Shown: one piece after another, positions 24,313-29,870 of the stretch | Position numbering within the stretch: the stretch's first letter is position 1 | Layout: each line of letters opens with the position of its first letter | DNA from: Deltaproteobacteria bacterium | Lineage (GTDB): Bacteria; Desulfobacterota; Binatia; UBA9968; JAJDTQ01 | Direction of reading: 5' to 3' | DNA: 35,836 nucleotides | Assembly (NCBI GenBank): GCA_028821115.1 | Contig: JAPPHF010000084.1 | Location: 1 to 35,836, forward strand | Position numbers and translations under genes: made by a program | Notes under the pieces: generated by a model | Told to the model about the DNA's origin: nothing | What the model saw: the letters and a program-made list of their open reading frames with translations, nothing else | Database searches by the model: none

Positions 24313-24402
24313 CGACGAACCGGAAACGCCGCCGCCGGGACGCCGGCACCGAGTCCACGGAATGTGAGAGAATATCGGACGACCGCGGACGCGGCCGCCG
24401 TG

Positions 24403-24636
24403 TCAGAGCCCCAGAAGCGAGTCGATCCGTTCCTGATCGAAGCCGACCACGGCTTCCCCGTCGATGATGACCACGGGGGTGCTTTGGAAACCGCGCGCCA
24501 GAAGGTCCTTCAGCGCCTCCTCGTCCTCGCGAATGTTCTTCTCCACGAAATCAACGCCCTTTTGAGAAAGATACTCTTTCTCTCGATGACAGGGCGGTCA
24601 ACCGGGTTGGGTGAACAGAATGATGGATTCGGCCAT
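24403..24636 (-). CDS. Glutaredoxin-like selenoprotein with in-frame UGA (Sec) in a UPPC redox motif
   Basis: Read-through translation: MAESIILFTQPG-U-PPCHREKEYLSQKGVDFVEKNIREDEEALKDLLARGFQSTPVVIIDGEAVVGFDQERIDSLLGL*. TGA codon at 24598-24600. GGAGGT Shine-Dalgarno just upstream; cis-Pro STPVV and GFDQE features of glutaredoxins/NrdH. Confidence 0.88.
24555..24596 (-). promoter_or_regulatory. Candidate bacterial SECIS element of the glutaredoxin-like gene
   Basis: After UGA: c-CGCCC-UGUCAUCGA-GAGAAAG-AGUAU-CUUUCUC-AAAA-GGGCG; 7-bp perfect upper stem, 5-nt loop with G at position 2, loop starts 23 nt after UGA, 5-bp lower stem. Confidence 0.85.
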
Positions 24637-24769
24637 GGGTACCTCCGTGTCTCGTTTCATAGCATCGACCGGTCATTTCTCAAAGGGCGTCTTGACATGA
24701 CCGCGCCACTTCTGTAGCCAAGGGTCTCGGCGTGGATGACGCCGGCAGAACCGAAACGGAGGGACATTT

Positions 24770-29208: not shown

Positions 29209-29288
29209 TTTTCCGCCCTCATATCAATGTGATAGAAAAGATTTCATACGCGAACAACTCCAGCTTGATGCGTCCAAAAGGAGGGATC

Positions 29289-29870
29289 ATGGCGATCACG
29301 GAAGAAACCGACGACCCGGGCTGCTGCTCCATCGACTACGGTCACCACAAGGCCGTCTTCGAGCGCCGCCAAAGGGCCTACCGGGAGGACCCCTCCAAGG
29401 CGGTGACAGTGCACGAGGCACGGGTACGCCTGGTCAACGACCACCTGAAGGAGGCCAGGACCTCGGAGGGCTACACCATCCTATGCGACGAGCCGGAGTC
29501 ACGGGGCGGCACCGGCAAGGGAGCCGCCCCGCTTCAGTATTTCGTGGCCTCCATCGGCTTCTGAATGCTCAGCCAGGTGACGCAGTTGGCGTCATTCATG
29601 GACATCCGCATCGAGCGCGCCGAGATCTCGGTGCGTGGAGAGTTCGACCAGAAGGGCAAGTTCGGTCTGTCGGACGTGCCTTCGGCCTGCACCCGCATGG
29701 TCTACCGTCTTGACCTGCAGAGCCCGGACAGCCGGGAGCGCATCGTCGAGTTCACCGAGGCACTGGAGCGCTCCTGTTACACCACCAACACCCTGCGCCG
29801 CCCGGTGGAGGTTGTGCCGGAGCTCACTCTAAACGGCGTCGACGTGCCTCTAGTGTCGTCTCCCACGTAA
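29289..29870 (+). CDS. OsmC family selenoprotein with in-frame UGA (Sec92)
   Basis: ORFs 29229..29564 and 29565..29870 are the same frame separated only by TGA (29562-29564). Joined: ...GTGKGAAPLQYFVASIGF-U-MLSQVTQLASFMDIRIERAEISVRGEFDQKGKFGLSD... U occupies the OsmC catalytic Cys position. SD GGAGGG upstream of ATG 29289. Confidence 0.87.
29573..29601 (+). promoter_or_regulatory. Candidate bacterial SECIS element of the OsmC-like gene
   Basis: CCA-GG-UGACGC-AGUUG-GCGUCA-UUCA-UGG; 6-bp perfect upper stem (extendable by G-U pairs), 5-nt loop with G at position 2, 19 nt between UGA and loop. Confidence 0.83.

Follow-up and report, generated by a model that had tools for sequence, protein, structure and literature searches.

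A selenocysteine glutaredoxin predicted in uncultured Candidatus Binatia, with a conserved SECIS-like hairpin inside the gene

Introduction

Glutathione (GSH) is the usual electron donor of glutaredoxins (Grx). Members carrying selenocysteine (Sec) in a UxxC motif have been a listed selenoprotein family since 2005, from the Sargasso Sea (PMC1088965), and figure again in a 2026 review (PMC13188914). The closest characterised relative of the protein described here, cGrx1 of Clostridium (Alkaliphilus) oremlandii, naturally contains Sec (PMC7642778). This native Sec lies at position 13, mutants U13C/C16S have been studied and the protein reduces methionine sulfoxide reductase A (MsrA) (PMC4479559). 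A bacterial SECIS is recognised as a stable hairpin just past the UGA, with a G in a small apical loop (PMC1088965).

Here we describe a predicted gene of this kind in Candidatus Binatia. The window, that is, the whole stretch of DNA analysed (35,836 nucleotides), is contig C52 of a fragmented MAG (2.2-Mb assembly, 77% complete). Computed in this work were the reading frame and its selection, the catalytic position, a covarying hairpin, a fold prediction and the genes of the Sec machinery. No report of a Sec-glutaredoxin in Binatia was found in the literature searched, subscription journals being mostly outside its reach, and Binatia are not mentioned in two selenoprotein reviews, PMC13188914 being one of them.

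Results

A read-through frame on the minus strand

The gene and its local signals are as follows.
24403..24636, minus strand: Sec-glutaredoxin gene, 77 residues (MAESIILFTQPG-U-PPC...LLGL), terminal TGA counted in
24598..24600, minus strand: TGA codon 13, predicted selenocysteine at the catalytic position of UPPC
24589..24591, minus strand: TGT codon 16, resolving Cys of UPPC
24641..24646, minus strand: Shine-Dalgarno GGAGGT, with the ATG 4 nt further on
24377..24399, minus strand: GC-rich inverted repeat directly past the stop codon, read by eye

The initial annotation had described a Shine-Dalgarno sequence and an ATG followed by 12 codons, a TGA and a continuing frame, and the translation is exactly as it claimed. 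Read directly, the ATG (24636-24634) opens 12 codons, followed by TGA (24600-24598), 64 codons translated as PPCHREKEY...LLGL and a terminal TGA (24405-24403), so that UGA serves within one gene both as codon 13 and as terminator. This read-through frame, 24636-24403, is far beyond chance. In the alignment of genus orthologues, GGAGG is present in 8/8 copies. The inverted repeat is a possible transcript end; it has no T run and a terminator scan did not flag the site. No Rfam family reached its gathering score in the window.

In the genus the gene stands by itself, flanked by a molybdenum-hydroxylase-type gene set on one side and a TctC-like gene on the other, and in family f3 it lies among unrelated genes that are mostly oriented opposite to it. 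Judged from these neighbourhoods, an operon partner was rejected. An antisense open reading frame (24364-24717, 117 aa) is probably not a gene, because only 1/3 congeners inspected has a counterpart of 80 aa or more. The corresponding reverse frame (rc1) shows a pN/pS of 0.14 in the genus, against the lower value of 0.04 in the real frame; the low rc1 value may come from the wobble position that it shares with the real frame.

Relation to described glutaredoxins

The read-through product matches PF00462 (Glutaredoxin, Pfam) at 4e-15, with 56.2 bits for a cut-off of 22.9. No NCBIfam model reaches its cut-off with this product: scores were 75.5 bits for YruB TIGR02196 (cut-off 88.55), 57.0 for NrdH TIGR02194 (85.75), 52.3 for Uxx-star NF041212 (66) and 28.4 for Uxx-star NF041114 (72). 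YruB TIGR02196 and Uxx-star NF041212 are among the best-scoring named models, and since their scores fall below the cut-offs they would leave the protein unnamed even after read-through.

An AlphaFold model has a thioredoxin fold (pLDDT 90.9), and its best PDB matches are BC3987 and the dithiol form of cGrx1 (TM 0.91, rmsd 0.8). The structural alignment with cGrx1 (PDB 7c10/7c12/7c13) spans all 77 residues at 46% identity and TM 0.91. Of the Grx/NrdH-like fold proposed initially, the Grx homology was supported (PF00462 at 4e-15, TM 0.91 to 7c10), and the type was corrected: the nearest type is YruB/cGrx1, and not NrdH or classical GSH-dependent Grx, although the product stays under every NCBIfam cut-off. 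A C-terminal GFD motif is common to the Binatia protein and to YruB/cGrx1-type redoxins.

Like cGrx1, the Binatia protein has position 13 as Sec, here predicted, and position 16 as Cys in a U(or C)PXC motif; as a difference from cGrx1, the active site reads UPPC in the genus, and it reads UGPC in sister families f2 and f3. With the glutaredoxin selenoproteins of the Sargasso Sea and of later catalogues (COG0695/PF00462) it shares the UxxC motif, the downstream hairpin and the apical-loop G (PMC1088965, PMC13188914).

Conservation of the in-frame TGA

Orthologues were searched in 58 genomes. Full-length copies were recovered from eight genus genomes, among them the one that carries the window, and from 20 genomes of sister families; all come from separate assemblies, and together they cover three families. 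Codon 13 is TGA in 28/28 of these full-length orthologues of the order (Candidatus Binatia) and Cys in none. Identity to the window protein is 95-97% among congeners and 62-70% in the sister families. In one congener (G008, 88% complete) the orthologue was not detected.

Among genus members, pN/pS amounts to 0.11 ahead of the TGA and 0.04 past it, and DNA identity amounts to 91-93% inside the gene versus 57% and 41% in its flanks. As judged from these comparisons, purifying selection acts strongly on the part of the frame that follows the TGA. Cys homologues of Soehngenia and of another Tissierellia bacterium (CPYC, 45-49% identical) place their Cys on the U13 column, and positions 13 and 16 are invariant Cys columns in the alignment with Cys homologues. 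The proposal that UGA replaces the first catalytic Cys was thus borne out, U13 falling on the catalytic Cys column of both the Cys homologues and PDB 7c10.

At the scale of the phylum, related Grx at E <= 1e-12 occur in 45/247 genomes; many of these genes carry the TGA, and some have Cys instead. In the family tree the Binatia genes group with other U forms and some switching between U and C is seen; the minimum number of switches is 6, including 1 owed to the mislabelled locus L101, and the tree cannot date them because it has too few columns.

A SECIS-like hairpin downstream of UGA-13

Two nested stems are predicted past the TGA.
24564..24582, minus strand: SECIS-like hairpin GAGAAAGA-GUA-UCUUUCUC, 8 bp with a 3-nt loop opening with G
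24555..24596, minus strand: lower stem CGCCCU/AGGGCG, predicted in the window sequence and partly kept in relatives

The loop G lies 23 nt downstream of UGA-13. For the 50 nt counted from the UGA, the folding energy is -17.5 kcal/mol (z = -3.3), and 0/200 shuffles were as stable. Across 24 orthologues in the order, 99.5% of the hairpin stem cells are paired, and 94.9% across the phylum. Cells compensated on both sides number 13 across the phylum versus 4.7 in shuffles, a count to be taken as support and not as a probability because shuffling leaves relatedness in place. At columns 23/33, A-U is replaced by U-A in eight sequences, the change at column 33 being silent (Leu codon CUU to CUA), and at columns 20/36 the pairs A-U, C-G and U-A alternate across the phylum. 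Shape and spacing of the predicted hairpin are those of a bacterial SECIS, and its changes are compensatory and in part silent. As for the lower stem, only 70.8% of its cells are paired in relatives; it was ruled out as a general feature of the SECIS on this ground, and only the upper hairpin is claimed.

A scripted scan, comparable to the bSECISearch run suggested at the outset, looked for frames that are interrupted by UGA and combine a redox motif with a SECIS-like hairpin; it retained seven candidates in the whole window. The Sec-glutaredoxin was tied for top.

Selenocysteine machinery and decoding of UGA-13

The genome carrying the window has selA, selB and selD in a row on contig C179 (selA 514.5 bits, selD 370.9 bits, selB read from its open reading frame), so that the total lack of Sec machinery, named beforehand as fatal to the claim, is excluded. 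The selD gene (C179:4863-5912, L009) has itself an in-frame TGA in the active-site region, AAG-U-AAK; from its sequence it is a Sec-type selenophosphate synthetase. The search for selC gave a divided answer: tRNA-Sec was found in 8/8 congeners (73.1 bits), with anticodon UCA in 5/5 congeners checked, and was not detected in the 77%-complete assembly that includes the window.

Our main reading, to which we attach a probability of about 0.95, is that 24636-24403 is a monocistronic gene for a selenoprotein glutaredoxin whose UGA-13 is read as Sec by means of SelB and the hairpin. SelB with Sec-tRNA would bind the hairpin that closely follows UGA-13, and insertion of Sec at this codon would give a 77-residue thioredoxin-fold protein with the active site U13-P-P-C16. 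By analogy with the family, the Sec13 selenolate would attack disulfides (or sulfenic/selenenic acids) of client proteins, the mixed selenosulfide so formed would be resolved by Cys16, and the selenoglutaredoxin would be reset by a reductase or a small thiol. The actual insertion of Sec, the redox activity, the electron donor and the clients are thus what we infer.

UGA-13 might instead be decoded as an ordinary amino acid (Trp or Cys), through an altered code or programmed read-through, as a conserved site tolerating an in-frame UGA would allow. This is very improbable given the adjacent selA, selB and selD of the genome and the tRNA-Sec of the genus, the position of the UGA at a redox-active Cys together with the SECIS-like hairpin, and the termination of the same gene with UGA. 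A pseudogene or sequencing error, in which a Cys glutaredoxin had its TGC or TGT turned into TGA (a single base change is enough, and the MAG is fragmented), is refuted by the same TGA in 28 concordant orthologues, which were assembled separately and belong to three families of the order, and by the purifying selection past it, the hairpin moreover being conserved and covarying; its probability is negligible.

Electron donor and client proteins

Taking the gene as a Sec-glutaredoxin, we looked at what may feed it. No PF02955 (GshB-type) glutathione synthetase scored above cut-off in the nine genomes of the genus (G000-G008), and the usual electron donor of Grx may therefore be missing. PF04107 glutamate-cysteine ligase-type (GCS2-type) genes are present in 9/9 genus genomes. 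A GSH-independent, NrdH-like Sec thiol-redoxin, reset by thioredoxin reductase or by gamma-glutamylcysteine, would be compatible with Sec at position 13; the synthetase result, the best family scores (YruB, NrdH) and the GFD motif speak for it. Against it stand the PF04107 genes, the scope of the synthetase search, which covered the PF02955 family, and the C. oremlandii cycle, which is drawn with GSH (PMC4479559). We give this reading somewhat less than even odds. Its extension, that a Binatia-wide clade of UPPC/UGPC selenoglutaredoxins whose hosts lack a GshB-type synthetase would act as a Sec redoxin independent of glutathione, drawing on another thiol or on a thioredoxin reductase and belonging to an undescribed rich selenoproteome of the lineage, is more doubtful.

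As to clients, the protein could be dedicated to MsrA, as proposed for cGrx1 of C. oremlandii: this closest characterised relative reduces MsrA (PMC4479559) and MsrA is found in 9/9 genus genomes. The MsrA of the genus has, however, no in-frame TGA, and no genomic linkage with the Sec-glutaredoxin was seen, which makes such a dedication unlikely. The lack of a TGA also led us to reject a Sec-MsrA partner; the Sec-Grx/Sec-MsrA pair of C. oremlandii is therefore not what the Binatia genus has.

Other candidate selenoproteins

A second selenoprotein candidate of the window is OsmC-like (29229-29870, plus strand, TGA 29562-29564). Its read-through product scores 134.9 bits against NF041052 OsmC_like_Se (cut-off 95), and a hairpin lies downstream of its UGA. 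The gene occurs with one TGA in 8/9 genus genomes, about 5 kb from the Grx gene in G004, and another, stronger OsmC-like Sec gene is located elsewhere in each genus genome. A congener also encodes a Uxx-star family 1 selenoprotein with UTYT (L110, G001:C1 about 2504.6 kb), at 95.2 bits against NF041114 (cut-off 72).

In the same order, outside the window's genus, a LysW-like double zinc-ribbon protein of about 92 residues has its TGA in CPF-U, a CxxU at a zinc-ligand position (loci L103, L100/L115, L105/L116 and L101/L117, in G026, G010, G023 and G009, respectively). The TGA is present in five copies from four genomes, and G032 has CPFC. The gene has a downstream hairpin, e.g. CCCTCAGGTTGAGGG, and adjoins a second Sec-Grx paralogue, whose motifs include UASC and UGSC. 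This CxxU protein is probably a selenoprotein, and possibly an unlisted selenoprotein family; the 2026 review mentions neither 'LysW' nor 'zinc ribbon' (PMC13188914).

A Sec-Grx domain was also observed at the N-terminus of proteins of ~250-290 residues: L106 (UFTC, G018:C2 about 86 kb), L107 (UASC, G010:C33) and L108 (USSC, G027:C596). The C-terminal part of L106 is DinB-like (DinB_2 1.1e-5), and no NCBIfam model scored above cut-off for L106 or L108.

Discussion

The locus adds a well-supported example from an uncultured bacterial lineage to a known kind of protein, one that had been investigated before in a Clostridium. The Binatia Sec-glutaredoxin is not exceptional, because a native U13 glutaredoxin had already been studied (PMC4479559, PMC7642778) and the family had been listed in 2005 (PMC1088965). 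The LysW-like CxxU protein is the more novel lead.

Ordinary annotation would cut the Sec-glutaredoxin gene to 12 codons, and the database entries of further proteins from these MAGs probably suffer from the same UGA-caused truncation. The gene offers a clean comparative case, in which one hairpin can be followed phylum-wide through compensatory and partly silent changes, and it adds the uncultured Candidatus Binatia to the lineages that use selenocysteine, with a SECIS that lies inside the gene and is conserved.
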